Part shown: piece by piece, positions 10,288 through 30,765 of the stretch
Layout: each line of letters starts with the position of its first letter
Numbering within the stretch: the first letter of the stretch is position 1
Source of the DNA: Pelagomonas calceolata
Taxonomy: Eukaryota; Sar; Pelagophyceae; Pelagomonadales; Pelagomonadaceae
Length of the DNA stretch: 64,000 bases
Direction: 5' to 3'
Assembly: GCA_918797485.1 (NCBI GenBank)
Contig: CAKKNE010000004.1
Coordinates: 5,250,223 to 5,314,222, forward strand
The notes under the pieces: model-generated
Told to the model about the DNA's origin: nothing
What the model saw: the letters and a program-made list of their open reading frames with translations, nothing else
Database searches by the model: none
Program-made: the position numbers and the translations under genes

Positions 10288-11843
10288 CTAGGAGGAACTA
10301 GGCATATCGTCCGAGTCGTGCAGGTAGCCGGTCACGTTCCGCGACGCGCGCACCAGCTCGACGCCGCGCGTCGCGTACCACTCGGCCATCTCTGTCCTGG
10401 CCTTGGACGCCGCGCTGTCGGAGTACGACTTCGTCCACGCGTCCCTCCGGCCGGGGAGGCCGTGCGACGCGCGGAACACGTCCACGACGCCGGCCGCGAA
10501 CTTTTCACCCCGCAAAGAGCAATAGCCGGGCAGCCAATCCGGGTAGCCGTAGCCCTCCGCGTTCATCTCGACGTCCGCCAAGTCGTGGAAACAGTGATAG
10601 GCATTGGGGGTGAACGCCGTCGCGAAGAGCTCTACTTTCGCCACGCGTCGACCGACGGCGCCGTTCGTGAGCTTCTGTGGCCTGTGCACAAATGAATCAG
10701 TGATTCGGGTGCGCCGCGACAATTTGATTCATGCACTGATCGAGGCCGCATCTCCGGGAAGCGGCGGCCGTGGGCCCTGCGGATCGCCGGCGACGCGACG
10801 TCCAGGTCGTTGCGGGCCGCGATCCGGAAAAAAGGCTTGGCGTCGAACTCGCCGGCGAAGAGCCGCACGTCGTCTAGTACAACCTAGGTAGAAATCAAAA
10901 TTCACCTCGACTGCTCGATGGCGCGGCGGTGCCGGTTCATCACCACTCGACGGAGCCAGGACGGCCGCGAGCACCCGGCTCACTGGTTGATTTCCACACA
11001 GATCACGACGAAGACCCACCGCACGCCCAGCGCCTGGACGTGCGCCGGCAGGACGAACTTGAGCTGCGCCACGTAGCCGCCCGTCCCCTTCGTCGGCACG
11101 CGCGGCACGTCGCACGCCTCGCTCAGGTAGGGCCTGCGTGCAAGTCGACCGGTGAGGCAAGCGCCGCGAAATTTGTCTTTGCGCGCTGGGTCGGGCAGGC
11201 GCGGGCCGTCCTCCTCCCCGTCGATGGGGCCGTCGATGGCCTCGTCGAGGTCGGGGTCGTCGCCGCAGCGCTGCCACGTCGGCACGATGCAGGCGCGGGG
11301 GCGGAGCATCGCCCAGTTGCGCCGCGCGACCTGCACGCGCCCGGCGTCCAGCAGCCCCGGCACGACCAGCAGCACGTCGAGCGCGCCGGCGTCGACGACC
11401 GGCCGTCGCGCGGACGCGGCGCAGCGCCGCGTCGCCGCCGCCTTGCGCTCGGCGGCGTCGACCGTCGGCCGGGGCGTCGGCCGTGGCGTCGGGCTCGGAG
11501 TTGGCGTGTTGAGCGCGACCGGCGCCGGCGTCCGCTTCGTCCGGCGCCGGCGCCGCCCCTCGCCTCCCTGGCACGTGCCGATGCCGTACGCGGCGCGCCA
11601 CGCCTTCTTAAAGTTGCAGTCGTCGTCGACATCGCACTCCCTGTCCTGGTTCGTGCACCTGCCCTTCTTGCGCGGCGTGGCCGGCGCGGCGGCCGGCAGC
11701 GGAACACCGCCGGCAGAAACACCATCCCCGGACGGTTCGGCGCCCGCGAACGGCAAGGTCAGGAGCTCTTTGAGTGACTGTGCGCTGGCCTGCAGCAGGA
11801 GCGCTGCGGCGGACACCACTTTGAGCAAGGCAGCGCCCCGCAT
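10288..11843 (-). CDS. Secreted DUF707-like protein (candidate glycan enzyme), three exons, both introns introner-derived
   Basis: Proposed exons on the minus strand are 11843-11010, 10883-10747 and 10681-10288, giving 454 residues. The ATG at 11843 begins a clear signal peptide (LLKVVSAAALLLQASAQS). A basic, Pro/Thr-rich linker follows. The C-terminal half resembles PF05212 (DUF707): WVFVVLDDVRLFAGEF with an Asp pair, VASPAIRRAH, and VELFATAFTPNAYHCFHDL. Such proteins look like Golgi glycosyltransferase-type enzymes, but activity is not established. Splicing out the introners at 10884-11009 and 10682-10746 restores one continuous frame in exact phase, which supports the model. The second intron needs a GC donor. 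The upstream region is shared with the small coiled-coil gene at 12146. Confidence 0.68.
10682..10738 (-). mobile_element. Short introner element (DUF707-like gene, intron 2; GC-AG)
   Basis: Inverted ends in gene sense are CAGTGCATGAATCA and TGATTCATTTGTGCACAG, close to the ends of the RelA introner. The intron is 10746-10682 (65 nt). Only a GC donor at 10746 gives the correct phase (codon CG|G). The flanking 8-mers, GCCTCGAT and GCCACAGA, match at 4 positions and may be an eroded target duplication. Confidence 0.6.
10884..11001 (-). mobile_element. Introner element (DUF707-like gene, intron 1)
   Basis: 118-bp element with inverted ends CTGTGTGGAAATCAA (right) and CTAGGTAGAAATCAA (left; 12 of 15 match). 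In gene sense the flanking 8-mers are GTCGTGAT (donor) and GTTGTACT (after the acceptor); both encode Val-Val, so they look like a target duplication that drifted at silent sites. The intron is 11009-10884 (126 nt). The interior closely matches the ALG2 introner. Confidence 0.88.
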
Positions 11844-12145
11844 CGCTGCCCAAACGCTTTGAGGGGCAGCCTCGCTTTGAGGGGCAGCCAAAATCGATTA
11901 GCAGTCGTACGATCCGGCCCGATTAGCCCGATTTTTCGGGCGGAATCCGGCCGCGGGCCCGATTTGCTAGTGTCTTACAGCTAGCTTTAGCAGCCCAGCG
12001 GCCAAAAGGAGTGGACTCTGCGGCTTTTTAAGGACCGTCACGCCGGAAACGGGAGCGTTGGGCTGCCTGAACCCCCCCCCCAAACCCTCTGAGATCCCTG
12101 ACGAGCACGAGAGCCACACACCTCCCGGGAGCCCTTGGGGTGGTG
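11844..12145. other. Divergent intergenic region, 302 bp
   Basis: Between the DUF707-like start and the coiled-coil gene start. It contains dyad copy 2 at 11966-11985 and a C-rich run near 12070-12080. No coding support. Confidence 0.5.
11966..11985 (+). promoter_or_regulatory. CTAG dyad element, copy 2
   Basis: Sequence GCTAGTGTCTTACAGCTAGC. It lies between two divergent genes, 122 bp from the DUF707-like ATG and 160 bp from the ATG at 12146. Confidence 0.6.
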
Positions 12146-12532
12146 ATGAGGGCTGCCCCGCGCATCGCGCTGCTGTGCCTGACCCTTCCGCGAGCAATCC
12201 TGGCCGCGGACACCGCCGACATCGATTTCCTAAACCTTCAGGGAGATATTCGAATCGCCAAGAAGGAGCGGCAGAACCTCGAACGAAAGGTCGACGCCCA
12301 GAACGGCGACCTCGCGCGCCGGCTCGAGGCCGCGCTCGCCGACAGGCAAGACATCAAAACCCAGCTCTCGATGCTCCAGGCGCAACTCCACGGGCTCCAG
12401 GCGGATGTCGTGTCCATGCCGGGGTACAGCAAGCGCAAAAATAAAGACGGCGGCGGCGGCGGTGGCGGCGGAGGTGGTGGCGGCGGCGGCGGCGGCGGCG
12501 GTGGCGGCAAAAAAAAAGAAAAGAAAAAATAA
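12146..12532 (+). CDS. Small secreted coiled-coil protein ending in poly-Gly and Lys tract
   Basis: 128 residues from the ATG at 12146; an in-frame GTG lies just upstream. A signal peptide (RIALLCLTLPRAILA) is followed by a heptad-like coiled coil of about 55 residues (IAKKERQNLERKV, IKTQLSMLQAQLHGLQ). It ends in a run of more than 20 Gly encoded by GGC/GGT repeats and then KKKEKKK. The Gly run is a low-complexity expansion that may vary between strains. No family recognised. It is convergent with ALG2, with only 10 bp between the stops. Confidence 0.6.
   Translation: MRAAPRIALLCLTLPRAILAADTADIDFLNLQGDIRIAKKERQNLERKVDAQNGDLARRLEAALADRQDIKTQLSMLQAQLHGLQADVVSMPGYSKRKNKDGGGGGGGGGGGGGGGGGGGGKKKEKKK
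12448..12510 (+). repeat. GGC/GGT trinucleotide tract (poly-Gly coding)
   Basis: A near-perfect run of GGC triplets with a few GGT and GGA interruptions, inside the coding sequence of the preceding gene. Confidence 0.9.
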
Positions 12533-12542
12533 AGACACACTT

Positions 12543-14099
12543 TTACCTTCTAGTAAGAACGCCGACACAAATGCGCTCGAGCCGGTCCGCGAAGGCGTCG
12601 AGCGAAAACAAGTCCCGGACCCGCTCGCGGCCGCGCTCCCCCATGGCCCGCCGCCCCGCCGCGTCGCCGAGGAGGTCGGCGACGGCCCGGGCCCAGGTTT
12701 GGGGATCGGGCGCCAGGAGCCGCCCGGTCACGCCGTCGACGACGGACTCGCGCGGCCCGCCCGAGTCCACGGCGACGACGGGCGTGCGCGCGTGCATCGC
12801 CTCGAGCGGCACGATGCCGAAGTGCTCGTTCTCCGGCCTGTGTTGCAGCGTGAGGCCCCGCGTCGATGGCGTTTGCAGGGGACGCCGCGTCCGCGCGTAT
12901 ACAGCAGGCACGCGCAGCGCGCGAGGAGCCGCGCCTTCTCGTCGCCGGAGACGGACCGGCGCTGCGTGACGCGGTCCGCGACGCCGAGCCGCGCGGCCAG
13001 CTCCTCGAGCTCGCGCGCGTGCTCGACGTTCTCCGGCAGGTCGGGGTCGTAGCCCCCCGCGAGCACGAGGCGGACGCGCGGCGGCAGCAGCGCGAGCGCC
13101 TCGACGGCCAGGCCCAGGTTCTTCTTCCGCTCGAAGCGGTTGATCGAGAGGAGCAGCGCCGCGTCCCGCGGCGCCTCCGCCACCTCGGCGTCAAGGCTCA
13201 GGGGCGGGTAGAGCACCTCGGGCGCCACGGCGAGCCGGGGGAACGCCCGGCGGAAGACGCCCGCCGTGAACCGCGAGTTCACGAGCACCTGTGTGGAAAT
13301 CAAAATTTTACGGCGCGTTCGTGCTGAACCGTCGCGTCGTCCTCCACGCCATCGACGCGACGCCTGCTCGATGGCGTGGCGGTGCCGGTTCGTCACCGCT
13401 CGACGGAGCCGGCACGGCCGCGTCATCGCCGAGAAATGACTTAATGAAGAATTTTCGGGTGCACCCGACGCACTGGTTGATTTCCACACAGACGAGCACG
13501 ACGTCCGCGAGGCCCGTGCACGTCTCCTCGCCCCAGTCCAGCGGCGCGCGGTAGAGGCGCGTGAGCGGGTTTTGTCGGTTCACGCAGAGCAGTTTGTCCG
13601 GGTAGTGGCAGTAGAAGACGACCGGCGCGGCGCACGCCGCCCGGGCGACGGGCACGGCCGTCGCGACCTGGTCCACGACGACGACGTCCGGGCCGTCGCG
13701 CGCGGCGCGCAGCGCGACCGCGACCATCCGCACCGAGGCGCAGAGCGCGTAGCACCTTCCGAGAATCCGCTTCGGCAGCCAGTCGCCGGCGACGACGACG
13801 CGCAGCGTGCCGTCGCGGGTCTCGTCGAAGCAGCGCCGCGGGTCGTGCCGCGCCGTGTAGATCGTCACGTCGTGGCCCCGGCCCCGCAGGCCGAGCGCCG
13901 CGTCGACGACGAGCCGCTCCGCGCCGCCGATGCCGAGGTCCGGGTGGGCGAAGGCGACGCGCAGCTTGCCTTGGCGTGGTTTTGGTCGTCGGCGGCGACG
14001 CCTTACGAGTCGTATGAGCAGCATTGCGGCTGCTGCAGCGGCCAGCAGGAGCCAAGTTAGCTGGCAGCGGTGTAATGCTTTCTTGCACAGCAGAGACAT
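12543..14099 (-). CDS. ALG2: ALG2-like alpha-1,3/1,6-mannosyltransferase, three exons
   Basis: Proposed exons on the minus strand are 14099-13500, 13288-12897 and 12837-12543, giving 428 residues. The protein starts MSLLCKKALHRCQLTWLLLAAAAAAM, an N-terminal membrane anchor, and then has the GT4 fold: FAHPDLGIGGAERLVVDAALGL, FYCHYPDKLL, DVVLVNSRFTAGVF, LLSINRFERKKNLGLAVEAL, and ENEHFGIVPLEAM, which carries the E-x7-E catalytic pair. ALG2 adds the second and third mannoses of the dolichol-linked oligosaccharide on the cytosolic face of the ER. Removing the 211-nt introner restores DVVLVNSRFT exactly. The second intron (12896-12838, 59 nt) uses a GC donor and joins LLYT to PENEHFG. ATGs further upstream at 14207 and beyond are less likely because the dyad element overlaps them. 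Confidence 0.92.
12838..12888 (-). mobile_element. Decayed short introner (ALG2 intron 2; GC-AG)
   Basis: The 59-nt intron contains the introner core box CGCCATCGACGCG and ends AACACAG. The flanking 8-mers, GCGCGGAC and GCCGGAGA, share GC.CGGA with a one-base offset. The phase TAT AC|G is correct only with the GC donor at 12896. Confidence 0.5.
13289..13491 (-). mobile_element. Full-length introner element with perfect ends and target duplication (ALG2 intron 1)
   Basis: 203-bp element with perfect 15-bp terminal inverted repeats (CTGTGTGGAAATCAA / TTGATTTCCACACAG). It is flanked by identical 8-bp copies of ACGAGCAC (13281-13288 and 13492-13499). In gene sense the intron begins at the GT of the upstream copy (GTGCTCGT) and ends at the CAG of the inverted repeat, so splicing restores the pre-insertion sequence. 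Inside is a 12-bp inverted repeat, CCACGCCATCGA (13344-13355) / TCGATGGCGTGG (13368-13379). No transposase is encoded. Confidence 0.96.
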
Positions 14100-14470
14100 T
14101 GCAGCTTTGCTCTGTGGTTCGCTGGCGGTCCAGAACGTCTTCCGACGCCCTCTTTTACAGCTTTGCAGCGCGTACGCTCCGTGCTCCAAAGAGGCTGCTA
14201 GCGTCATGTAAGACACTAGCTTGCAAGCGGCGGGCTAGGCTAGGGCGGCTTTTGAGACGCACGGCCGTCCAGAGCTCCGTGTAGAACTCTGCAGCCGTTT
14301 AGACATTTCCACTGTTGCCACTAATCATCGCAGCCAGCGCTTTTCGCGTGCCGTGGCGAGTACTAGACAAAATCCGGCAGTGGCAGATTTTCAGCAGTGT
14401 GGGGCGGACGCGTAGATTCTGCGCACGCGCATAGCGTCTAAGTTTAGCAACGAGAAACACCAAGACAACA
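14100..14470. other. Divergent intergenic region, 371 bp
   Basis: Between the ALG2 start and the golgin-like start. It holds dyad copy 3. No other structure seen. Confidence 0.5.
14197..14220 (-). promoter_or_regulatory. CTAG dyad element, copy 3
   Basis: The plus strand reads GCTAGCGTC, one base, then TGTAAGACACTAGC. It is the best match to copy 9 (two differences over 23 bp). It lies 97 bp upstream of the ALG2 ATG. Confidence 0.65.
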
Positions 14471-17368
14471 ATGTGGTCTCGCGCCCTCGACCGAGCCTCC
14501 GCTTTAGCGGAAAGAGCAGGAGACGGCGTCGGCGGCCTGATCGACGGCGCGGGCACGATCGGCTCCGCCGCGGCGCGGGCGCTCGACGCCGTCGACGACC
14601 TCATCGGCGACGACGACGACGACAAGCACTCGGACTACTCGTCGGAGGACGACCGGCGGCCCTTCTCGATGCAGGCGCTGCGCGAGGAGCAGCGCCGGCG
14701 CGACGAACTACTGCGCGGGGAGCAGCACACGTCGCTGCGGAGCCGCGGCGCGTCGTACGACTACTCGCCGCCGCCGTCCCCGCCGGCGGCCTCGCCGGGG
14801 CTCTCGAACCGCGTCGCGGAGCTGACGCGGGAGCGCGACGAACTGGCGCGGGAGCGCGACGAGCTGCAGCGCGACCGGCAGGCTAAGCACGACGAGGCGC
14901 GGCGGCTCGTGCAGCGGTACCGGGCCATCGAGCGCGAGCTCGGGAGCGTGCGCGAGAAGGCGGACCGGGCCGACGAGCTCCAGCGACGGCTCGACGCCGG
15001 CGGCTCGAGGCAGGAGACGCTGGACAAATTGGTGGCAAAGTACCGGACCCTCGAGGAGAAGTTCGGCCGGGCGAAGCAGCGCGCTCTGGAGGCCGAGCAG
15101 GCCCTCGCGGCCCAGGGCTCCGACGACGCGCTCCAGGCCGCCGAGGCCAAGGCGACGACGGCCGTGCGCGCGCTCGCGACCGCCGAGCGCCGCGCGAACG
15201 CCAAGGACGACGAGGAGAGCCGCGCCGTGGCCGACGCGCAGCAGCGGGCGGCCGACGCCGAAGCCCGGCTCGCGACGGCGACCGAGGCGCTCCGAGCTGC
15301 CGAAGAAAGGGCTGCGGAGGGCGCCGAGGCGCTCCGGGCCGCCGAGGCGCGGGCCGCTGAGAGCGCGGCGGCAGACGACGGCGCCGCGGTGGAGCTCGAG
15401 GCGCTGCGGGGCCGCCTCGCGGCGGCCGAGACGCGCGCGGACGCGGCCGAGAAAGCCAGCGAGCAGGCGCGCAAGTCCGTCGACAAAATAAAAAAGTCGG
15501 CGGAGCGCAAGGTCGAGCGCGCGACGCGCGAGCTCGCCGCGTCAAAGTCGGACGGCGACGCGTCGGCGGCGCTCCGCGAGGCCCACGCCGAGGAGGTCGA
15601 GCAGCTGCGGAGCGAGCACGCCGTGGCGCTCGCCGAGGCGCGCGAAGAGTCGGCGGCGGCGCTCGCCGAGGCACGGTCCGAGGGTGAAGCGGCGACGGCG
15701 GCGCTCGAGGCCGCGAAGGCGGAGACCGCGGAGGCGCGGGCCGAAGCCGAGGCCGCACGTGCGCAGGGCGACGAAGAGCTTGGCGCGCTGCGGGGCGAGC
15801 TCGCCGCGGCCGAGGCACGCGCCGCCGCCGAGGACCTCTCCGGGGCGCTCGCTGCCGCGGAGGAGCGAGCCTCAAAGGCCGAGGAGCGCTCCGCGACGCT
15901 CCGCGACGAGCGCGGCGCGGTGGCGGCGCGCTTCGCCGGCGAGGTCGCGTCGGCCGAGGCCGCGCGCGATGCGGCGGTCGAGGACGCGGCGGCGGCGCGG
16001 AGCGAGGCCGACGCGGCTCACAACGCGGCCGACGCGGCCCGGAGCGACGCCGACGCGGCCCGGATCGAGGCCGACGCGGCTCAAAACGAGGCGACGAAGC
16101 TGCGCGACCGCGTCGACGCGCTCGAGGCCGACGGCCGCGGCGACCGCGTCGCCGCGGCGGAGGCGCGGGCGGCGGCCGCGGCCGAGGTCGAGGCGAGCGC
16201 CGCGCGGCTGGCGCGCGTCGAGGAGGAGCGCGACGCACTGGCGGCGCGCGTGGCCGCGGCGACGCGGCGCGCCGACGACGCCGACGCCGCGCGCGAGCGC
16301 GACCGGCGGGACGCGGAGCGCGAGGCCGAGCGGCGCGACGCCGACGCGCGGGAGGCGGACGAGGCGCTGGCCGCGGCGCGCGCGAGCGCTGCGGCGGAGC
16401 AGACGCGCGCTAACGGCGCCGAGGCCCTCGCGAAGGAGGCCCGCGCGGCGCTCGACGCGGCGCGGAGCGAGGCGGCGGCCGCTCGCGACGACCCTGCCCG
16501 CGACGGCGCGTTCGCGGCGACGGCGGCCGCGCTCGCGGCCGCGGCGGCCGCGGCCCGGAAACGGACGGCCGCGGACGTGGGGGCCGTCAAGGCCCTCACG
16601 GAGCGGCTCCACGAGCACAAGGCCGCGGCCAAGGCCGCCGAGGACCGCGCGGCGACGGCGCTGCAGCTGGCGGCTCGCGTCGGCGACGAGCGCGACAAGC
16701 TCGCGCGCGAGCGCGCGGCCGTGGACGCCGAACGCGACGCGGCGCGCCGGGCGCTCGCCGATCGCGAGCGCGACGAAGGTGAGGCTTTGAGCGCCGCGGA
16801 CGCGCGGGCCGATGACGCGGCCGGGCGCGCGGCGGCGGCCGAGTCCGCTCGCGCGCTCGCGGAGAAGGCGCTGGCCGACGAGCGCCAGGAGCGGGCCACG
16901 GAGGCCGCGAACTTGGCGCAGGCCGCGGGGGCCGCGGGACAGGCGCTGACGGAGCGCGACCAGGAGCTGCGGCGCGTGACCGCGCGGCTCGAGGCCGCGA
17001 CGCGACAACTCAAGGCCGCCGAGGACTCGGCCGAGGCCGCGCGCGCTCAGGCTGAGGCCGCGCGCGCGGGCCTGCGGGCGCGCGCGCCGAGCCCGACGGA
17101 CGACCTCGAGGCGGCGCGGGGCGACGACGACGACCGGCCGAGCCGCAGCTCGCGGGGCGGCCGGCGCGTCTGCGGCGGCATGTGGCGGGGGCTGCGGCGG
17201 TGCCCCGGCGCGTCGCGAGTGATGGGCGCCGAGCCGCCGCGGTTGTCGGCGGTCCTCGTGCTCGCGTACCTCGTGTACCTCCAGGTCGACGTGTTCTTGT
17301 TGCACGGGTCGCTCGCGGAGGCCGCCGTGGCGCCGTCTGGTGGAGGGCCGGGGCCGCCTCCTGTGTAA
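14471..17368 (+). CDS. Large Ala/Glu-rich coiled-coil protein with C-terminal membrane anchor (golgin-like)
   Basis: 965 residues from an ATG at 14471. An acidic N-terminal region and a Pro/Ser-rich stretch (about 98-112) precede roughly 750 residues of almost uninterrupted coiled coil, rich in Ala, Glu, Arg and Asp. Near the C-terminus a single hydrophobic segment (LSAVLVLAYLVYLQVDVFLL) is followed by a short Gly/Pro tail. This layout matches tail-anchored golgins such as golgin-84 or CASP, which tether vesicles at the Golgi. Sequence identity to a given golgin cannot be claimed because Ala/Glu coiled coils look alike. Long open frames on the opposite strand here are a by-product of the biased codons. 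Confidence 0.72.
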   Translation: MWSRALDRASALAERAGDGVGGLIDGAGTIGSAAARALDAVDDLIGDDDDDKHSDYSSEDDRRPFSMQALREEQRRRDELLRGEQHTSLRSRGASYDYSPPPSPPAASPGLSNRVAELTRERDELARERDELQRDRQAKHDEARRLVQRYRAIERELGSVREKADRADELQRRLDAGGSRQETLDKLVAKYRTLEEKFGRAKQRALEAEQALAAQGSDDALQAAEAKATTAVRALATAERRANAKDDEESRAVADAQQRAADAEARLATATEALRAAEERAAEGAEALRAAEARAAESAAADDGAAVELEALRGRLAAAETRADAAEKASEQARKSVDKIKKSAERKVERATRELAASKSDGDASAALREAHAEEVEQLRSEHAVALAEAREESAAALAEARSEGEAATAALEAAKAETAEARAEAEAARAQGDEELGALRGELAAAEARAAAEDLSGALAAAEERASKAEERSATLRDERGAVAARFAGEVASAEAARDAAVEDAAAARSEADAAHNAADAARSDADAARIEADAAQNEATKLRDRVDALEADGRGDRVAAAEARAAAAAEVEASAARLARVEEERDALAARVAAATRRADDADAARERDRRDAEREAERRDADAREADEALAAARASAAAEQTRANGAEALAKEARAALDAARSEAAAARDDPARDGAFAATAAALAAAAAAARKRTAADVGAVKALTERLHEHKAAAKAAEDRAATALQLAARVGDERDKLARERAAVDAERDAARRALADRERDEGEALSAADARADDAAGRAAAAESARALAEKALADERQERATEAANLAQAAGAAGQALTERDQELRRVTARLEAATRQLKAAEDSAEAARAQAEAARAGLRARAPSPTDDLEAARGDDDDRPSRSSRGGRRVCGGMWRGLRRCPGASRVMGAEPPRLSAVLVLAYLVYLQVDVFLLHGSLAEAAVAPSGGGPGPPPV

Positions 17369-17771
17369 TTCTCTAACATCTTGGAGGCGCCCGCGGCCGG
17401 CTTGGTCTCGGACTGGGGTGAGAGAGCAGGATAGTTCGTTTCTGTAGCTATCCATAAGACGTCTATGTTGTCCTAGAACTCTTTGCGCCTAAACTAAAAT
17501 CGGCGAAGCCCGGAAGCCCGCACCTGCTTTGGAACTTGCTCGACGGAGACGGAGAGCAGGCTAGTTGTTTTTACCTCAGAGCGTCATAGAACAGATCTCC
17601 CGCTGCGCACCGTGCACACTCATACACACGAATCACCTGCAGTAGTTTTTGGCTGCTCTCGACGACGCGTGCTCTCGATTAGCACAAACACAGAGCAGCA
17701 CCACGACTCTCCACACCCAATTACGCAAGGCATCAACTCAATCACTGCGAAACTCGAGCACCAACGCCAAC
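17369..17771. other. Intergenic region, 403 bp
   Basis: Presumed 3' region of the golgin-like gene and promoter of the next gene on the same strand. The reading frame is open upstream of 17772 but has no ATG. Nothing else recognised. Confidence 0.45.
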
Positions 17772-18530
17772 ATGGAACGGCCGCCGGACTCCAATTTGCA
17801 GTTCAATAGCAGCTCCATGGCTCGCAAGAACCCCGCGCTCCAGTCGCTGCGGACGTCGGGCGCGCCCGGTCGGCCGGTGGCGCACATGCCGAAGGGCGTC
17901 ACGACGGCGTTCCAGCTGCCCGCGACGCCGCCGTCTATGAAGGAGCCCGACTCGCCCATCGTGCTGAACGAGCCGACGCCCAAGAGCTCGACGCCCGGGA
18001 CGGTGACGCCGCCGCCGCCCGGAGGGGTCCTGCCCCAGGGCCACGCCGCGTCGCAACTGCCCGCCGGCGCCGCGATACGGGCCCTCAAAGTGCTTTCGAA
18101 GGCGCAGGCGCCGGTAAGCGAGATTATCGTCTCGACGAGTTTAGTGGCTGTGCGCAAGTTCTGCGAAGGCAAGGAGAGGGCCATCGTTCGAGCCGCAATC
18201 GAGCTTAACTCGCATGCGAGATCGGGCCTGTCCGCCGACGCGCGCGTTGCGATGCGGAGGCTGCACGCCGCGAAATTGCCGCTTGCCTACGTCCTCCTGG
18301 CGAAGACGGAGGGCGGGGCGAGAGCGGTCGCGTTGGGCGCCCACTCGGGCGACAAGGATCGGCTCGCCGAGGATTGTGAACTTGTCCACCGGGACGCGCA
18401 CCGCGGGACGTCTTTTATGATATGGCAAGTTCCAGAGGCAACGCAAGAGCTCGTCGAGGCGAAGTGCCAGGCGCTAGCGGCCGACGCGGCGGCGAAGGCG
18501 TCGGCCGAAGCGTTCGTCGGCATGATCTAG
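17772..18530 (+). CDS. Unrecognised protein with Pro-rich N-terminus and alpha/beta C-terminal half
   Basis: 252 residues from an ATG at 17772; the open frame extends upstream to 17649 without an ATG. The first 110 residues are Pro/Ser/Thr-rich and probably disordered. Residues from about 115 onwards alternate helices and strands (AAIRALKVLSKAQ, AYVLLAKTEGGARAVALGAHSGDKDRL, TSFMIWQVPEATQELVEAKCQALA) and look like a small folded domain. No family recognised and no targeting signal. It is convergent with the GT8-LRR gene. Confidence 0.6.
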   Translation: MERPPDSNLQFNSSSMARKNPALQSLRTSGAPGRPVAHMPKGVTTAFQLPATPPSMKEPDSPIVLNEPTPKSSTPGTVTPPPPGGVLPQGHAASQLPAGAAIRALKVLSKAQAPVSEIIVSTSLVAVRKFCEGKERAIVRAAIELNSHARSGLSADARVAMRRLHAAKLPLAYVLLAKTEGGARAVALGAHSGDKDRLAEDCELVHRDAHRGTSFMIWQVPEATQELVEAKCQALAADAAAKASAEAFVGMI

Positions 18531-18679
18531 GGTGTTGAGGACGTCGTTGGACCAGGCTAGGCCATGCCCCCCAAGGACTAACGTTTTACTTTGTGTGCTT
18601 TGTTATCGCTCGCCCTCGACCCCTAGGTTGCCTCCGAGTCGGTCGCAAGGAAGCAGAAAATCACACAAACCCGTGCTCC

Positions 18680-21117
18680 TTACTCCTTCCCCGTGTCGAA
18701 CAAGCGCGCCTTCTCCGACAGGTTCCGCGCCCGCGAGGCGTCTTCGACAATGTCGTCGGGTACCTCATAGTCATCGTCAGTAACGCCGACGGACGCCCCG
18801 AACAGGCAGAACTCCAGCAGCCCCGCCACGTCGCCGTCGTCGACGGTTTTGACGTCGACGGAGAACAGGGACCGGTGTGAGACTGCCGCGTCCGGCGGGT
18901 CATTCGCGAGGTGTACGACGAGCGTCTTCGCCTTCGGGTACCTCTTCTTCAGGAGCTCGCAGCACGCGACGAGGTCCTGGGCGCCGTCCTCATCCAACGA
19001 ATCCCCCGTCAGGGGGCAGTTCACGAACGACCCGCACGCGCCGCGGGCCTGTGTGGAATCAAATTTCGGGCGCCCCACGCCATAATTCGCAGGATAGCCT
19101 AACTCACTGGTTGATTTCCACACAGCCGCGGACCCCATCCCTATAAACAAAGCACACGGCCGCACCCTCCTCCCTCAGCGCGGCGTCGAGCCGGATCACG
19201 CGTCCCGCCAGGTCGTCCAACACTTCGCACTGCGCGCTCACGGGGTCGTCGAACTGAAAGTTATCGACGGACGCCCACTTCGTGCGGTGGTTGTAGGCGA
19301 AGCGCCGCACGTCGTCGTCGGTCTCGCGCCGCGCGTTCACCGTTGAGTCGTCCGGGCACGGGTCGCCGCGGGCCCGCGGGCGCCGCGGCGTCGGGTCGCA
19401 GACGTAGCGGCCCGTGCGCTCGTCCTGCGCGAGGTAGACGAAGTCGCGCGCGTCGACGCACTTGCCCGCGTGCAGGCCGCGACGCCGTCGTCCAATGGAA
19501 AGGAGCCGGGCTTGCACTCCCTTCTACATTCGTCGAGCCACGCGGCCGCGGCTTGATCCGAACCGGCGGCGATGACGCGCCAGCGCGGCCCCGCGAGCAG
19601 CGTCTCCGCCAGCACCGGGAGGCCGCGGCCCGCCGCGCGGCACCGCTCCGTGAAGCGGTCCGCGAGGCCGCGCGGCGCGCCCGCGAGCGGGTTGCCGCAG
19701 AGCCGGAGCGCCTTTAATGGTAACGCCGCGAGCGCCGCCGGGATTTGCTTGAGGAGGTTGTCGCGCACGTCGAGCTCCTCGAGCTTCGTGAGCTGTATAA
19801 TGTTCTCTGGGAGCGCTTTCAGCTGATTCCCGCGGGCCCTGCGCGGAAAGCGACCGGTCACGTCGCTTCACAAAGAAGAGGGACGTACCTGAGACAGACC
19901 AGGTTACAAAACTGGCCGCAGATTTCGTCGGGCAGCGCCGCGAGCCCGGCCCGGTCGAGGTAGAGGCGCCGGAGGCGCGCGGGGAACGCCAGAGCTTGCG
20001 GCGCAAAGGCCGCGAATGGCGCGTCGCACAAAGACAGCGCGCCGTGGTCCCGGGGCGCTCGCGCGCGGCCCTCGTCGGCCGCGGCCCACCACGCGCGCTC
20101 GAGCGCCGTCCGCGGCGCGCTCCCTTCCGTCTTCGTCCACGGCTTCCGGTCGCCCGCGTACTGCACGACGACGGCGTCGTCGGGCCACACTGCATTAAGG
20201 TCCCGCTCGCCCGGCCGCGGCCGCCAGTTGTACCGGAAGGGCAGGCGCTGCCCAGCGACGTCCTTCTCGAACCAGTCGTCGAAGAACTCGTTCAGGAAGC
20301 CGCCGACGTCATTTGAGGGCGTCTTCGGCGCGAGCTTGAGCATGGCCTCGAGCGTATTTGACGAGGGCGTCAGGACCAGGACGCCGCCGTCGAAGGTGTC
20401 CGGCGGGTAGAGCGCCGGCGCCGCCGCGAACGCGACGTCGCGGCACGTCGCGAAGAGCTGGTCCGCGCTCCCGACGACGAGGCAGTCCGCGTCCAGATAC
20501 ACAATCTTCCCGTAGTCTTCCAGGCCCCAGACCCGTAGCTTCGTCGACCGCACGTCACTCGCATCGCGGGGGTTCTCTATGTTCTCCACCTCGACGACGC
20601 GCGTCGCGCCGGCGCCCTTGAGCCGCTGGCGCGTCGCTGGCGTGACCGACCGCGCCACCATCGCCACGCGCGCCTTCTTCGTGTGCTTGGCCAGCGACCG
20701 CAGCAGCGCCTCGGCGCCGGGGGCGTAGGCCTCGCTACCGAGGAACGTCGCGTAGGCGTCGGGCCGCGTCTCGGCGGGCGGCTCGTAGACGGGCCCGTCG
20801 TCGTTCGTGTACACCACCCCACCGTTCGCGCGGCACTCCGCCTCGACGCGCGCGCGCTGCGCGGCGGCGTCGCGGTCGACGGGGATCTTCGTGCCGCCGT
20901 TCTTGGGCGGCGGCCGCGGCAGCTTTGAGGAGGGCGGCACCTTGACCGTCTTCGAGGGCTCGCAGAAGTCGTCGGCGGCGGCTTTCTCGGGCGGCCGCCG
21001 CTCGTTCTCCTCGTCGTCGACGGCGTTCGTCCAGGTGACGCTGCCGCGCGCCTCGCCGTGCGTTAAGGGCACGGCCTTGGGCGGCGCCGTGTCACTGAGC
21101 GGGCGGGCGCGCCACAT
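18680..21117 (-). CDS. Glycogenin-like GT8 glycosyltransferase fused to LRRs and an unknown C-terminal region
   Basis: Proposed exons on the minus strand are 21117-19889, 19838-19134 and 19048-18680. From the ATG at 21117, residues about 115-320 form a GT8 domain: AYATFLGSEAYAPGAEALLRSL, then the metal-binding DxD in GKIVYLDADCLVVGS, and FDGGVLVLTPS. Leucine-rich repeats follow (RLYLDRAGLAALPDEI, GNQLKALPENI, LEELDVRDNLLKQIPAAL). The last part is Cys- and Asp-rich (GKCVDARDFVYLAQDERTG, then AKTLVVHLANDPP) and unrecognised. Intron 19888-19839 is an ordinary GTACGT..CAG intron of 50 nt. The last intron is an 85-nt introner. The middle exon shifts frame near 19460-19500: DECRRECKPGSFPLDDG lies in one frame and GKCVDARDF in another, needing one extra base. 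This is either a sequence error or a missed mini-intron. Likely action: UDP-sugar transfer, possibly glucan priming. Confidence 0.78.
19049..19125 (-). mobile_element. Minimal introner element (GT8-LRR gene, last intron)
   Basis: 77-bp element with ends CTGTGTGGAAATCAA and CTGTGTGGAATCAA, the second lacking one A. It is flanked by CCGCGGGC (19041-19048) and CCGCGGAC (19126-19133), a 7 of 8 match. The intron is 19133-19049 (85 nt). Splicing gives ...VYRDGARGACGSF in frame. Confidence 0.92.
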
Positions 21118-21517
21118 TTGCTGGTTTGGGCAGCCTTGTTTTTGTTGAGTTATTGCTTGTTGTTGTTATGATGCTGCAAGCTTGTTGTGCTGTTGCTGTA
21201 TGCAACGATGCTCCAATGCTGTGTGCTTGCGATTGGGGGCAGCCCAATGATGCGCGCAGACTTCGAAGGCTGCGGAGCTGAGACCCGCACGCGGCCTAAG
21301 CCGCGCTCCGGGTACCCTGTATTGAGTGCATGATTGCTCCACGCGTCGGCTGCGGCATGAGAATTCGCGTGTCATATCGTGCGGTGTGAAAGGTTGAGAG
21401 GCTCCACCATCACTTGGTGAAGCCGGCCAGCGCACACGCTCCAGCAATGATCACGACATAATATTAGCGCTGTATTACATACACCGTGCCAGGCAGTCGC
21501 AAAACAACATAAGAAGA
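21118..21517. other. Divergent intergenic region, 400 bp
   Basis: Between the GT8-LRR start and the RelA/SpoT start; lower GC than the coding sequence. No motif recognised. Confidence 0.45.
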
Positions 21518-23912
21518 ATGGCTCATCGATCAAAGGCAGTGAGAGCAGCATGTCCAGGCCTGAGAGCACGTCCAGCGGGCGTCGCGGCACGGAGGCCACG
21601 TGCGCCAGCGCTCGCGAGCGCCCGATCGTCGATCGGACTGGTCGCGTCGCTGTGCGCGCTGCTCCTGGCCACGGCGGGCGCCTACGCGCCGCGCCGGCCG
21701 TACCCGCGCGGCGTGCGGCGCCAGGTCCGGCGCGCGGCCGAGGCGCGGCCCGAGCGGTCGTGGACCGGCCGGCTGTGGCAGCCGATCCGGACGCTGTACA
21801 AGCGCGAGCAGCTGCTGGACGACTGGAGCGAGATGCAGGCGCCGCGGAGAACATCGCGCATCAAGAAGCTCGACCGCGGGGCGAACGCGACCTGGAGCGA
21901 GCGGGACCAGGACGCCGTGGCGCGCGCGGACATGCGCGCCGTCGACCGGGACTGGAAGCGGCTAGAAAAGGCCATCGCGTACCTCCCGAAGGACGAGCGC
22001 GCGGTCGTGCGGGACGCGCTGATCGTGGCCCACGGCGCGCACGCGGGCCAGAACCGGCGGAGCGGCGAGCCCTTCGTCAGCCACCCCGTGGCGGTGTCGA
22101 TATTGTTGGCGGACCTGTCGATGGACCGGGACACGGTCGTCGCCGGGCTGCTGCACGACACGGTCGAGGACACGTTTTTGAGGTTTGAGGACGTGGAGCG
22201 GCGTTTTGGGCCGGATGTCCGGGCGCTCGTCGATGGCAGTGCATAAATCAATGTCGCGTCGCGTCGATGGCGCGGAGGCCAGCTCGATGGCGTGGCTATT
22301 CGGCCAGCACGGTCGCGTTCTCGCCGAGAAGAAACTCACTGGTCGATGCGCGCACAGGTCGAGGGCGAGACGAAGGTCTCAAAGCTGCCGAAGCTGGACG
22401 CGACGCTGGGCAGCGAGACGCCGGGCGGGCCAGGCCAAACAAAGGAATTGGAACAGCTTGAGAACCTGCGGCAGATGTTCGTCGCCATGACCGACGACTA
22501 CCGCATCATCATCATCAAGCTCGCCGACCGCCTACACAACATGCGCACGCTCGAGCACATGCCGCGGCACAAGCAGCTGCGCATCTCGCGCGAGACGATC
22601 GAGATCTTCGCGCCGCTCGCGCATCGGTTGGGGATCTGGCAGTTCAAGGCCGAGCTCGAGGAGATCGCCTTCGGCTACCTCTACCCGCGGCCGGCGGCGG
22701 CGCTCGCGGCGGCGCTCGAGGCGCGGCGGCCGCGCCACGCCGGCGCGCTCCGGGGCGTCACGGCCGCGCTCGAGCGGAAGCTCGCGGCCGACACCACGCT
22801 CGACCACGTCGGCGTGACCGTGTCGGGCCGCACGAAGGAGACGTATTCGCTGTGGCGCAAGCTCGAGAGCGACCGCGCGGCGCGGCGCGAGGACCTCGTG
22901 AGCGAGGTCTTCGGGTCCGACGCGCCGGCGCCGCTCGTCGACGACGAGAAGTTGTTCGCCGCGCGGGACTTGGATGAAGTGCCGGACGTGGTGGCCGTAC
23001 GCGTCGTGCTGGACGTGCCCCGGGCGTCGGACCAAGAAACGCCCGAGGCCTGGCGCGAGCGCGGCGTCCAGCTGTGCTACCACGTCTTGGGAGCGGTCCA
23101 GCACCTCGAGGACTGCGAGGCCGTGCCGCGCGTCAAGGACTACATCGCCTTCCCCAAGCCCAACGGCTACCAGTCGCTCCACGCCTCCGTGCTGCGCGAG
23201 CCCGAGGACCAGGTCGTCGAGATCCAGATCCGCACGCGCGGCATGCACGAGGTCGCCGAGTACGGCATGGCCGCGCACTGGCTCTACAAGGACGGGTTGC
23301 TCGAGCCCGGCGGCGAGGACGCGACGCGGCGCGCGCTCTGCGCGTCGGCGTCCGCCGCCGCCGTCGCCGAGAAGCGGCCGCGCGCGTCGGCGAAGCCCTA
23401 CGCGCTCGAGTGGCTCAACGCCATCAAGGACATGCAGGACATCCATAGTTCAAGGGAGTTCGTCGAGACGATCCGACGTCCGAGGCGGCGTCGAATTTCA
23501 CTTTAACTCGGGTCCGTCTCCACGCCATCGATGCGAGTGAGCCGTTGATCCCGTCGCTGTCTACGCAGGAGAGGTCCTCGGCAAGCGCGTCTTCGTCTTC
23601 TTGAGGGACGGGCGCATCCTCGACCTGAGCAAGGGCGCGACGGTGCTCGACGCGGCCTTTAGCATACACACGGACGTGGGCCTCCACCTCGACCGGGCGC
23701 TCATCAACGGCCACGAGGTCCAGCTCAGCTACGAGCTCCACAACGGCGACGTCGTGTCGATCAAAACGTCGGAGGACGCGCGGCCGCAGCTCGACTGGCT
23801 CCGCATGGCGCAGCGCCGCTCGACGCGGTCCAAGCTCCGGGCCTACTTCAAGCGCGAGGGGTGCTTCGACACGGCGACGACGGCGCCGGCGCCGGGTAAA
23901 GACATAGGATAG
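21518..23912 (+). CDS. Plastid-targeted RelA/SpoT homologue (bifunctional-type ppGpp enzyme), three exons
   Basis: Proposed exons are 21518-22228, 22358-23477 and 23569-23912, about 724 residues. The N-terminus has a signal peptide ending LLLATAGAYAPRRPYPRG, a good heterokont plastid signal of the ASAFAP type. An HD hydrolase domain follows, with SHPVAVSILL and LLHDTVEDT (HD at 213-214). Then comes the synthetase domain: SGRTKETYSLWRKL, RVKDYIAFPKPNGYQSLHASV, VEIQIRTRGMHEVAEYGMAAHW. A TGS domain closes the protein (RVFVFLRDGRILDLSKGATVLDAAFSIHTDVG). It makes and probably degrades (p)ppGpp in the plastid stress response. Intron 1 (22229-22357) is a clear introner, and splicing yields the family-typical LVEGETKVSKL. 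Intron 2 (23478-23568) is probably a decayed introner. The stop is only 3 bp from the stop of the convergent Mog1 gene. Confidence 0.93.
22237..22357 (+). mobile_element. Introner element (RelA/SpoT gene, intron 1)
   Basis: 121-bp element with left end CAGTGCATAAATCAA and right end ending GATGCGCGCACAG. The core TCGATGGCGTGG matches the ALG2 copy. The flanking 8-mers, GTCGATGG and GTCGAGGG, match at 7 of 8. The intron runs from the GT of the first copy (22229) to the CAG at 22357. Its orientation relative to the gene is opposite to the ALG2 copy. Confidence 0.9.
23486..23568 (+). mobile_element. Probable decayed introner (RelA/SpoT gene, intron 2)
   Basis: The interior has CACGCCATCGATGCG at 23521-23535, the introner core with one change. 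The left end CGGCGTCGAATTTCA and the right end TCGCTGTCTACGCAG match the family ends at 9 and 10 of 15 positions. The flanking 8-mers GTCCGAGG and GAGAGGTC no longer match, so this copy would be old. Confidence 0.5.
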
Positions 23913-26263: not shown

Positions 26264-29135
26264 CTAAAGTCCGTCCATGGAGTCGCTGTCCGAGGCCTCT
26301 GGCAGGTCGGGGTCGGGTGCGGAGTCTTCGTCGGAGTCGCGGGCGGCGGACTCGTCGTCGTCGTCGTCGCCGCCGCCTGAGTCATCAACCGGCAGCGCGG
26401 CCTCGCGCGCCGCGGTCTTCGTCGCGTCGGCGATAATACACGCGGCCAGGCGCGCCGCGGCCGCGTCGGCGAACGCCGCGCTCGGGTCGAACGCCGCCGC
26501 GTCGTACAGGGCAGCCGATATGTCGGTCGCGTCCGCCTCCGCCAGGTCCGCGGCGCTCTCGAAGCCCACGTCGTGCAGCGCGCGGGCGCGCGCGCGGGTG
26601 ATGTTGCCCGGACTCGCGCGCATGAGCCGGACGAGCTCGTCGGGCGCGCCTCGCGCGAGCAGGCCGCGCGCGCTCTTGCACGCGCGCGCGGCCTCAAGCC
26701 ACGCGAGCTTCCGGCAAAAGTACTCGAGGCGCCGCGCCAGCGTGGCGGCGTCGCGCGAATAATTATCCACGTCGCCGCCCTCGCACTTGGTCAGCGACGC
26801 GTCCGGGCCGGCGTGTTCGCGGTAGCGGGCGGCGAACGCGGCGGCGAAGCTCGGCGTGCCGCTCGAAGTTTGATTTCTTCCCCACGTTCCGTCTTCTTGC
26901 TGGACTGGACCTTGATGATGCCCGGGGCCCAAACCGATGCGGTCGTGGAGCAGCAACGCGAGCGCGAACCGTCGACAGACGCGGTCGGGCGTGCCCGGCA
27001 CGTTTTTCGCCTCCGACTCCGCCGTCGCCGCTAAGCCTCGCGCGCGGCGCGCGACGTGCGCCTCGCAACCGCCGCATAGCTTGAAGACTTCGCGCGCGCC
27101 CTTGCCCGCGTCCTTGAGAGCGTCCCCGAACGCCGCCCAGTGCGCCCACCCCCCCAGCACGTTCTGCTGGAGCGGCGCCGTGAGGTAGAGCCGATGTAAC
27201 AACGCGTACTCCGGAGCCACGCCGCCGTAGTCGACGCCGTGGCGGCAGCGCAGCGCGGCGGCGACCTCCAGGGCGTCCGCCGGTCCCAGCCCCGCGCCGA
27301 CCGTCGCGGCGCCGAGCGGCGTCGGTTCCCAGGTATCATCCAACAAGACAGAGGGCGCTTCTCCCGGCGGATCTTTCCAATTCGCACCGCCCGGGCGCAG
27401 GAACCCGCGCGCGGCGAGCCACCGCAGGGGCAGTCCCGCGTCCAGCGCGCCGTCGAACGCCGCCATGACCTCGCGCCGCGCGATCAGCCCGCCCGAGACG
27501 GCCTCGAGGACGTGCCGTCTCAGTCCGTCGTCGTCGTTGCGGAGCCGGCTCAGGATCGGCGGCGCCGCCGCGCCCAGCAGCTTCTCGGCACCCACCGCGC
27601 CGCGCTCGCCGTTCCCGCCGGCGCACACGATCCACGCGTCCGGCGCCCGCTTGGTCCCAAACCCGGCGCGGCCTGCTCGTCCTATCATCTGGCGGAGCTC
27701 CGCGCCCGTCCGCCGCTGGCCGCCGCCCTTGACGACGACCCGTGCCACGGGCAGGTGCACGCCGACGGCCAGCGTCGTGGTGCAGCAGAGCACGTCGCAG
27801 TCCTTGCGCGCGAACGCGGCCTCGACCATTTCGCGCTCCGCGGCCGCGAGCCCCGCGTGGTGGAAAAGCACGCCGTGCCGGCAGCACGCGCGCAGGTCCG
27901 CGGCGTGCGCGGCGTCGGGCGGCGACGCGCTCCGGAGCCGCTCGGCCAGCGCGGCGCGGCACGCCGCCTTCTCTTGATCTTGAGCGCCGCTCTCGCGCCA
28001 GCGCCGCTCGGCCAGCCGCACCGCCGCGGCGCGCGCGTCGGCCCGCGAAGCCACGAAGAGCATCACCGGCCCCGGCGGGTCGTCGAGGCACAGCTTATCC
28101 ACGACGGCGTCGCCGACGTCGTAGTCCGCGGGCGCCATGACCGCCAGGCGGCGCTCGTCGACGCGCGCCCCGCCCTCGGCCCAGACGCGCGTCGCGACCT
28201 CCTCGGTTGGGGCCATCATTCGCCGCGGCATCGGCGGCGCGAGGGCCAGGTGGATGGCGACGGTCGTGGGGCACTCGGCCGTCTCGTAGAGGCCCGCGCC
28301 CAGCCACGCCGCCAGCGCCCCCAGGTTCGACGCCGTCGCCGTGCACGCGACCACGGGCGCGCCGACGCACGCCACCTTGCAGAGGAAGCTCTCGAGCGTC
28401 GCGCCGCGGTTCGTCCCCATCTCGTGGACCTCGTCGACGCACACGCACGCGAGCCGTTTCCGCGCCTGCGTATCGAACGGTAACCCCTCTTCGAGCACGG
28501 GACGCCGGTCCGCGAACGAGCTCGACGCCGCCCTTCTCCAGCAGCGCCTGGAGGAACTGGGCCGCGCTTTCCCACGTGCACGCGGCGAGGTCGCACCGCG
28601 CGTCGTCGATCAGCGCGGGAGGCTTCCGCGCCTTCGACCCTTCGCGCGCGCGCCGCGCGTCCTCGGCCTCGCCGTGGCACACGCGGACGCGCCAGCCGTA
28701 CGACCCGTCGCCCGAGAAGTGGCGCGCCAGCTCGGCGGCCTTTTCGTCCGCGAGCGCGCGCTTCGGCACGACGAAGAGCGCGACGCGCGGCGTGTGGTCG
28801 TGGCGCCACAGCGCGCGCGCGAGCAGCGCCTCCGCGACCAGCGTCTTGCCGCCCGAGGCCGGCGCGCTGTAGACCAAGTTCTTGTGGGCCACGCCTTGCC
28901 GCAGCGCCTGCCACTGCCACGCGTACGGCCGGTCGCAGCCGAACCGCGCCGCGCAGCGCACGGCGTCGGGCAGGCCCAGCTTGTCGAACGCTACGGCCAG
29001 TGACGGCGTGTCCGCGGCGTCCTCGAGGATCGGTGCCGGCCGCGGCGTCGGTTTGAGGAACCGCTGCGGCTGGAGCTTGTTGCGTTCGCTCTCGCGCCGC
29101 TCCCGGAGGCCCCCCACTCTTGCTGGGGCGAGCAT
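26264..29135 (-). CDS. HELQ: HELQ/POLQ-type superfamily 2 DNA helicase (frame interrupted once)
   Basis: From an ATG at 29135 the protein reads PYAWQWQALRQG, Walker A SAPASGGKTLVAEALLA (about 88-104), VVPKRALADEKAAEL, then DEVHEMGTNRGATLE, VACTATASN, FHHAGLAAAEREMVE and MIGRAGRAGFG. Further on, RLEYFCRKLAWLEAARACKSARGLL and ARALHDVGFESAADLAEA match the helix-hairpin-helix-like region of HELQ and the POLQ helicase half. It ends in an acidic Ser/Asp tail with no polymerase domain, so HELQ fits best: a 3'-5' helicase in recombination repair. Near 28500 the frame shifts by one base between ALLEKGGVELV and VLEEGLPFDTQ, where related proteins are continuous. This is either a sequence error, a very short intron or a real lesion. 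The distal part is otherwise intact. Confidence 0.82.
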
Positions 29136-30606: not shown

Positions 30607-30765
30607 TACCTATTGCGCAGTGAAGTGCCTTAACCGGTTTCTTGCGAAGTCACGCCTCGCTCGGCACCGCTCACCACTGCTGTGTAGCGCGCTGCTGCAC
30701 ACAGCCCTGCGGGCACTCACTGCGGGCGCCCCAGCCCACCGCACGCCATCGACGCGTGCTCCATT

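Follow-up and report, generated by a model that had tools for sequence, protein, structure and literature searches.

How new introns originate is a long-standing question, and it is raised in concrete form by seven introns that lie in four genes at the right-hand end of contig C4 of the alga Pelagomonas calceolata. The window examined here (the whole 64 kb stretch of DNA that was analyzed, positions 5250223-5314222 of 5314222) belongs to a genome that totals 32,445,274 bases in 8 contigs. An earlier note on this DNA proposed that the introns, located in genes it called DUF707-like, ALG2, GT8-LRR and RelA/SpoT, derive from one family of introners (intron-generating transposons) preserved at graded stages of decay. 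The seven introns do exist at the coordinates proposed and belong to one introner superfamily, and the original observation is confirmed in part. We favor, with a probability of roughly 0.93, the reading that these introners are non-autonomous DNA transposons, or miniature inverted-repeat transposable elements (MITEs), with a consensus of 203 bp and 15-bp inverted ends, that make introns.

The architecture of the family is represented in full by the first intron of ALG2 (13289-13499, minus strand), which contains a full-length 203-bp family A element at 13289..13491 whose terminal inverted repeats (TIRs), of the form CTGTGTGGAAATCAA, are exact. When the 64 kb window was searched by nhmmer with profiles built without the window copies, this element was recovered with an E value of 5e-61. 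The remainder of the intron is an 8-bp target copy (13492-13499, GTGCTCGT in gene sense) that is identical to the exonic copy at 13281-13288, such that the target site duplication (TSD) matches at 8/8 positions. The Pfam Glyco_transf_4 match of the joined ALG2 product (57-217) runs over the intron 1 junction. RNA corresponding to 13281-13499 folds far better than shuffled sequences on either strand (z -3.9 and -6.5), the TIRs pairing with each other, and the hairpin formed on the ALG2 gene strand covers a core box that the earlier note had used as a mark of the family.

We propose that insertion is carried out by a transposase, presumably supplied in trans, and is accompanied by duplication of 8 bp at the target site; the duplication is evident in the copies themselves. 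Each end, read outward as TTGATTTCCACACAG, would then constitute a compact 3′ splice module, in which the acceptor CAG is preceded by TTGAT, a sequence that fits the YTRAY branch-site motif and may serve in this role. The element does not carry a donor; the sequences show that GT or GC opens the upstream target copy and fills this role, as was suggested previously. The predicted intron is composed of one target copy plus the element, and the other copy would restore the exon; this restoration has protein-level support for RelA/SpoT and ALG2, and elsewhere it is predicted from the same arrangement. Splicing selection would retain insertions with a GY dinucleotide (GT or GC) facing the acceptor end and would keep that acceptor end intact, as the CAGTG ends described below suggest. 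Later, copies would lose interior sequence and their ends would diverge, which is consistent with a trend in element length.

A genome-wide search for the TIR at up to 2 mismatches returned 1653 + 1597 matches, versus 14 + 8 in the reversed sequence that served as a control, and at two ends for each element we estimate that the genome carries approximately 1,600 copies. Within the window, where up to 3 mismatches were permitted, 6 TIR matches were found versus 0.34 expected, and none of 100 shuffled sequences reached 6. For a more detailed view we used 98 paired elements, which comprise three window copies and loci L001-L109 without L003 and L004 (both inside L010). Their flanking 8-mers are identical in 44/98 cases and agree at 6/8 positions or more in 83/98, compared with 0.6 and about 4 for shuffled pairs. 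The 25 near-full-length copies define the 203-bp consensus, to which they are 86.7-97.5% identical, and the consensus plus one 8-bp duplication amounts to 211 bp. Subfamily B has the same ends as A and another type of interior. Subfamily C has the ends CTGTGCATAAATCAA, and CTGTGCATGAATCAA at up to 1 mismatch yields 92 matches versus 0 in the control; in eight such places that were fetched, the TSD scores 7 or 8 in five, 6 in one, and 4 or 3 in two. As is characteristic of introners, near-full-length sequence is common to many introns of unrelated genes (98 paired, 25 near full length), and the TIRs and target duplication overlap the predicted splice boundary.

By the estimate from end counts, this family offers well over a thousand insertions, each with a built-in control in which the exonic target copy preserves the pre-insertion site next to the intronic copy. 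Counts within the small genome of this abundant marine alga can therefore address directly how donors evolve and what becomes of new introns, and the unequal-ended copies help to distinguish selection by splicing from a preference for certain targets.

If the target supplies the donor, GY should stand at its start. A GY donor is present on at least one strand in 95/98 elements and in all 83 of those with a TSD of at least 6, versus 32% of background 8-mers. By strand, 35 elements have it on the plus strand only, 35 on the minus strand only and 25 on both. The 3 that lack it altogether have a TSD of only 1-3/8, and their partner end may therefore be wrongly assigned. When the element is removed from the 70 unambiguous cases and its flanks are joined, the junction reads through as an open frame in 67 if the donor orientation is used and in 40 if the opposite one is used; this GC-rich genome has many chance open frames. 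Among 78 elements that could be oriented (after 3 without a donor and 17 ambiguous ones were dropped; 66 of the 78 have a TSD of at least 6), the acceptor AG is present in 78/78, although this is partly imposed by the TIR search. Position 2 of the TIR varies in 5/78 of the 5′ TIRs and in 0/78 of the 3′ TIRs. GC donors are frequent, occurring in 13/66 oriented elements of the sample and at 37/100 CAGTG-type ends with GY among the matches listed.

The inverted-repeat nature of the ends allows each of them to act as the acceptor, and thus either orientation works. Indeed, element and splice orientation are the same in 32 of the 70 unambiguous cases and opposite in 34 (4 unassigned), in agreement with the proposed use of both orientations. 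From sequence considerations, the 15-bp end would be a 3′ splice module in any direction, and an element would need just a correctly placed GY.

Ends that begin with CAGTG provide a natural control for this model. There are 170 such ends genome-wide when all variants are combined, and 0 in the reversed control. Read outward, CAGTG becomes CACTG, which lacks AG and cannot be an acceptor; therefore, GY must adjoin these ends if splicing matters. GY is found at positions -8/-7 of 152/170 CAGTG-type ends (two of the 152 being both ends of a 387-bp relative, L138), versus a background of 17.6%. Likewise, CAGTG is on the donor side in 6/6 of the unequal-ended elements that were fetched (L135, L139-L143), whose other end is CTGTG. 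Three of the 18 exceptions were fetched, and by eye each retains a GT at a distance of 9 or 10 bases on the upstream side, which would fit an insertion of 1-2 bases. Among the matches listed, 51/100 ends are of the type CAGTGCATR (subfamily C) and 9/100 are CAGTGTGG.

The strongest competing explanation, which we nevertheless consider improbable, is that GY at the target start reflects a target preference of the transposase rather than selection by splicing. Such a preference would account for the presence of GY in every element with a good duplication, for the location of nearly all sampled elements in open frames, and for the mild excess of RC (AC or GC) at the opposite end of the target, as evident by the 25/98 elements that fit on both strands. 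It would also accommodate the 387-bp relative, in which neither end could be an acceptor and yet the duplication both starts and ends with GC. However, the GY requirement is one-sided, with the far end near background, and a symmetric preference does not predict GY beside 152/170 ends that are unable to act as acceptors. A transposase with a fixed insertion orientation relative to GY could also account for these data. It is likely that splicing, and not target preference alone, filters which copies are found.

Several points weigh against our interpretation. The far end of the target has RC in 29/100 8-mers among the matches listed versus 17% background (p 0.003), and this excess, together with the GC that stands at either end of the duplication flanking the 387-bp relative, may indicate some target preference by the transposase. 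Some CAGTG ends may be donor-side changes that arose after insertion rather than inherited features. The 98-element sample derives from contig C1 except for three window copies, and most of its members were sampled by an exact left TIR, such that decayed copies are under-represented. Two of the seven window introns depend on interior similarity alone, and the splice junctions of all seven are predicted. Finally, no autonomous element or transposase with introner ends was found in genome searches with the Pfam families PF05699, PF13359, PF10551 and PF12762 only, P-element and piggyBac families not having been searched.

The seven window elements have lengths of 203, 121, 118, 83, 77, 57 and 51 bp, in keeping with the size range of 51-203 bp noted before. 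The claim that they share 15-bp ends applies to three of them (13289-13491, 10884-11001 and 19049-19125), which carry CTGTGTGGAAATCAA. Of the other four, 10682-10738 and 22237-22357 represent another subfamily with the 5′ end CAGTGCATRAATCAA, and 12838-12888 and 23486-23568 are known by their interiors only. Similarly, the acceptor CAG that had been ascribed to every copy is found in 6/7, with TAG in the element at 10884. The best copies do have 8-bp flanking duplications (8/8 for ALG2 intron 1, and 7/8 for both the GT8-LRR intron and RelA/SpoT intron 1). TSD matches in the three weakest (4, 3 and 2 of 8 for the second introns of the ‘DUF707’ gene, ALG2 and RelA/SpoT) barely differ from chance, if at all, given that 2-4/8 is the most frequent score of shuffled pairs. 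With the introns removed as predicted, the ALG2, RelA/SpoT and ‘DUF707’ genes each have an open reading frame.

In RelA/SpoT (plus strand), intron 1 harbors a 121-bp subfamily C element (22237..22357; nhmmer E 4e-10 at 22257-22357) with an exact 5′ TIR of the CAGTG type (CAGTGCATAAATCAA) and a decayed 3′ end, and its target copies (intronic 22229-22236, exonic 22358-22365) match at 7/8. Exact removal of 22229-22357 yields ...RALV|EGETKVSKL, which is ungapped at this place relative to the best solved RelA/SpoT match, and the unspliced frame stops after 242 codons. Intron 2 contains an 83-bp remnant (23486..23568, intronic target copy 23478-23485, TSD 2/8) that is recognized by an interior box, and its junction lies within the region (474-707) over which the joined product matches 5iqr. 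In ALG2, intron 2 is a 51-bp remnant (12838..12888, minus strand) with an interior box, no recognizable 5′ TIR, and an intronic target copy (12889-12896) that has a GC donor and a TSD of 3/8; here too a Pfam match of the joined product, Glycos_transf_1 (238-403), runs over the junction.

The two remaining genes are on the minus strand. The name ‘DUF707-like’ is not confirmed, as the protein has no Pfam match at E 0.001. Its intron 1 holds a 118-bp family A element (10884..11001) that uses the acceptor TAG, has TIRs with 3 and 0 mismatches, is flanked by target copies (intronic 11002-11009, exonic 10876-10883) that agree at 5/8, and gives an nhmmer E value of 1.6e-22 at 10907-11001. Its intron 2 holds a 57-bp subfamily C element (10682..10738) with an exact 5′ TIR CAGTGCATGAATCAA, a 3′ end of the CTGTGCACAAATGAA type, a GC donor in the intronic target copy (10739-10746), a TSD of 4/8, and a marginal E value of 0.004 at 10682-10770. 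The GT8-LRR intron carries a 77-bp subfamily B element (19049..19125; E 9e-17 with profile B) between target copies that in gene sense read GTCCGCGG (intronic, 19126-19133) and GCCCGCGG (exonic, 19041-19048), with a TSD of 7/8 and a GT donor versus exonic GC. The GT8-LRR product leaves frame upstream of this junction, which is therefore predicted only from the frame and the duplication at the site.

Could these seven introns be a decay series of a single family, as first proposed? Such a series would fit the association of shorter length with poorer TSDs and the 87-97.5% identity of the 25 near-full-length copies to their consensus, and decay is indeed seen in the genome sample. In the window, however, one strong copy belongs to subfamily B, and two weak copies carry the exact 5′ ends of subfamily C (CAGTGCATAAATCAA and CAGTGCATGAATCAA), so that their divergence is mostly ancestry. 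We judge this explanation quite unlikely for the set as a whole, and for 10682-10738 and 22237-22357 it is largely refuted. The weak copies were scored as predefined introns against both consensuses (consensus A being built from 25 copies, of which one is a window copy) and against 400 dinucleotide shuffles each, and all four weak introns outscore every shuffle, narrowly for RelA/SpoT intron 2 (42.5 versus a shuffle maximum of 41.5). ALG2 intron 2 likewise has 0/400 shuffles as good, yet its nhmmer E value of 2.3-4.7 at 12853-12915 is not significant, nor is that of RelA/SpoT intron 2 (0.1-0.44 at 23508-23538). Window stretches outside the seven introns, 30721-30768 (E 0.094) and 26853-26877 (E 0.13), found with profile B, equal these scores, and a blind scan would therefore miss both remnants.

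That the elements are ordinary MITEs in genes or intergenic DNA with incidental splicing would explain their TIRs, TSDs and strong hairpin folding (z -3.9 and -6.5), but is very unlikely given that an ordinary MITE has no need of the one-end GY observed here in 83/83 and that the RelA/SpoT frame is restored only when the intron is removed.

Changes after insertion are suggested by the sample. Shorter elements have poorer duplications (Spearman 0.33, p 0.0016, n=89 of 98), with median lengths of 189, 150 and 117.5 bp for TSDs of 8, 7 and 5-6, respectively. CpG positions were considered as a decay clock and rejected, since 81/1400 CpG positions versus 162/3675 others are changed in the 25 copies, which is not a strong effect. 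For elements with a TSD of at least 6, an exonic GC is accompanied by an intronic GT in 5/18 cases, and an exonic GT by an intronic GC in 0/48 (Fisher p 0.001); for comparison, C-to-T differences at target positions 3-8 amount to 5/113. The GT8-LRR intron of the window is one of these five cases. With a TSD below 6, there is one intronic GC with exonic GT (TSD 2/8) and one GT with GC. Lists of exact TIRs on C1 to 5.51 Mb contain 86 strand entries (68 elements, of which 18 were entered on both strands), distributed as 52 GT/GT, 28 GC/GC, 6 intronic GT/exonic GC and 0 reverse. The unambiguous entries among them are 36 GT/GT, 11 GC/GC, 3 intronic GT/exonic GC and 0 reverse, although two of the three are already part of the 98-element sample. 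These data hint that GC donors turn into GT after insertion. Counting against such improvement, the genome-wide GT:GC ratios of 647:355 (exonic) and 645:342 (intronic) hardly differ, and the effect must therefore be small or limited to older copies.

The terminal features give about an even chance that the parent was a hAT-like transposon. Elements of the hAT superfamily have TIRs with a consensus start of CAGNG, and maize Ds elements are spliced as introns. The 8-bp TSD of the introners is of the hAT type. As for the start, families A and B begin with CTGTG instead; subfamily C copies have CAGTG at a single end, and the 387-bp relative (L138, C3:4409231-4409617) has it at either end. The termini of this relative both carry CAGTGTAGAAATCAA, the 8-bp target copies that flank it are identical (GCCTGGGC), and its AT-rich interior has no clear likeness to the introner consensus beyond the ends. 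Searches for PF13359, PF10551 and PF12762 gave no match in the genome. The sole match of the four family searches is a 721-aa open frame with a hAT dimerization domain in a complete-looking hAT element (C4:4499549-4503199, L029 + L144) that has a perfect 19-bp TIR and an 8-bp duplication, TTGCTCGC; we rejected it as the autonomous partner because the ends of its element, CAGGGCAGCAGAAGGGCAA, differ. The hAT MITE Mar has an 8-bp TSD and short TIRs as observed here, and its TIR, CAG(G/A)GGTAGGC, starts like the CAGTG ends (PMC3517528), although introner families A and B begin with CTGTG rather than CAG.

One tentative and rather doubtful scenario would begin with a CAGTG...CACTG hAT-like ancestor, of which the 387-bp copy survives. 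A T-to-A change that converted the outward CACTG to CACAG would have produced an intron maker; one changed end would permit one orientation, and two changed ends would permit both orientations and the widest spread, with GC donors later improved to GT. The opposite order may also apply, with CAGTG arising from CTGTG at the donor end, where there is no constraint.

Introners of this kind are already known. Those of Aureococcus anophagefferens and Micromonas are reportedly introns derived from short DNA transposons that have TIRs and direct repeats, as Huff et al. are said to have described in 2016, and Pelagomonas and Aureococcus are both pelagophytes. The likeness to our elements, which are also short TIR transposons with direct repeats turned into introns, is one of description only; the unequal-ended subfamilies are not mentioned in those descriptions as far as the excerpts compared extend. 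Our comparisons cover parts of PMC9481584, PMC9860276, PMC7789003, PMC12768974 and PMC3517528. The nuclear genome reported for P. calceolata RCC100 spans 32.4 Mb in six contigs, alongside the plastid and mitochondrial sequences, with 0.45 introns per gene and an intron length peak at ~210 bp, a length called characteristic of A. anophagefferens, and the introns were likened to Aureococcus introners (PMC9481584). These are very probably the same elements, given 211 bp here versus the ~210 bp peak there and a genome that corresponds in size and number of contigs; the parts of that report compared give the length peak only, and its supplement may describe TIRs, TSDs or donors. The TSD is 8 bp here versus 4 bp in the Symbiodinium example of a comparable introner class (Gozashti et al., 2022; PMC9860276), and an Aureococcus sp. 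family in the same source has 8-bp TSDs yet supplies the two splice sites itself and lengthens the transcript by 12 bp. A literature search for introner and hAT together, which was blind to the plural ‘introners’, led only to work on fungal genomes, and none of the titles and abstracts examined describes introners with unequal ends or an improvement of donors, although such descriptions may still be in print. The kind of element is thus known and was previously noted in P. calceolata, and the anatomy of this family illustrates how splicing probably determines the copies that are observed.

Viral carriage of the introners was also considered. Three exact TIR-plus-flank patterns retrieved 0 stretches from viral_contigs; the bare 15-mer TTGATTTATGCACAG retrieved 64, of which none has an inverted partner within 600 bp with a TSD above 4/8, and we attribute these to chance. 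The core box proposed as a family mark is present and forms one arm of the hairpin, but is weak evidence on its own, and we rejected it as a stand-alone indicator because it occurs 288 times at up to 3 mismatches versus 145 expected; read in frame, it encodes Ala-Ile-Asp-Ala. In GT8-LRR, the reading frame shifts around 19478, where there may be another small intron or an indel. This gene also has an ordinary 50-nt GT-AG intron (19839-19888) that is not introner-like, as evident by the stretch 19840-19893, whose score is matched by 62/400 shuffles.

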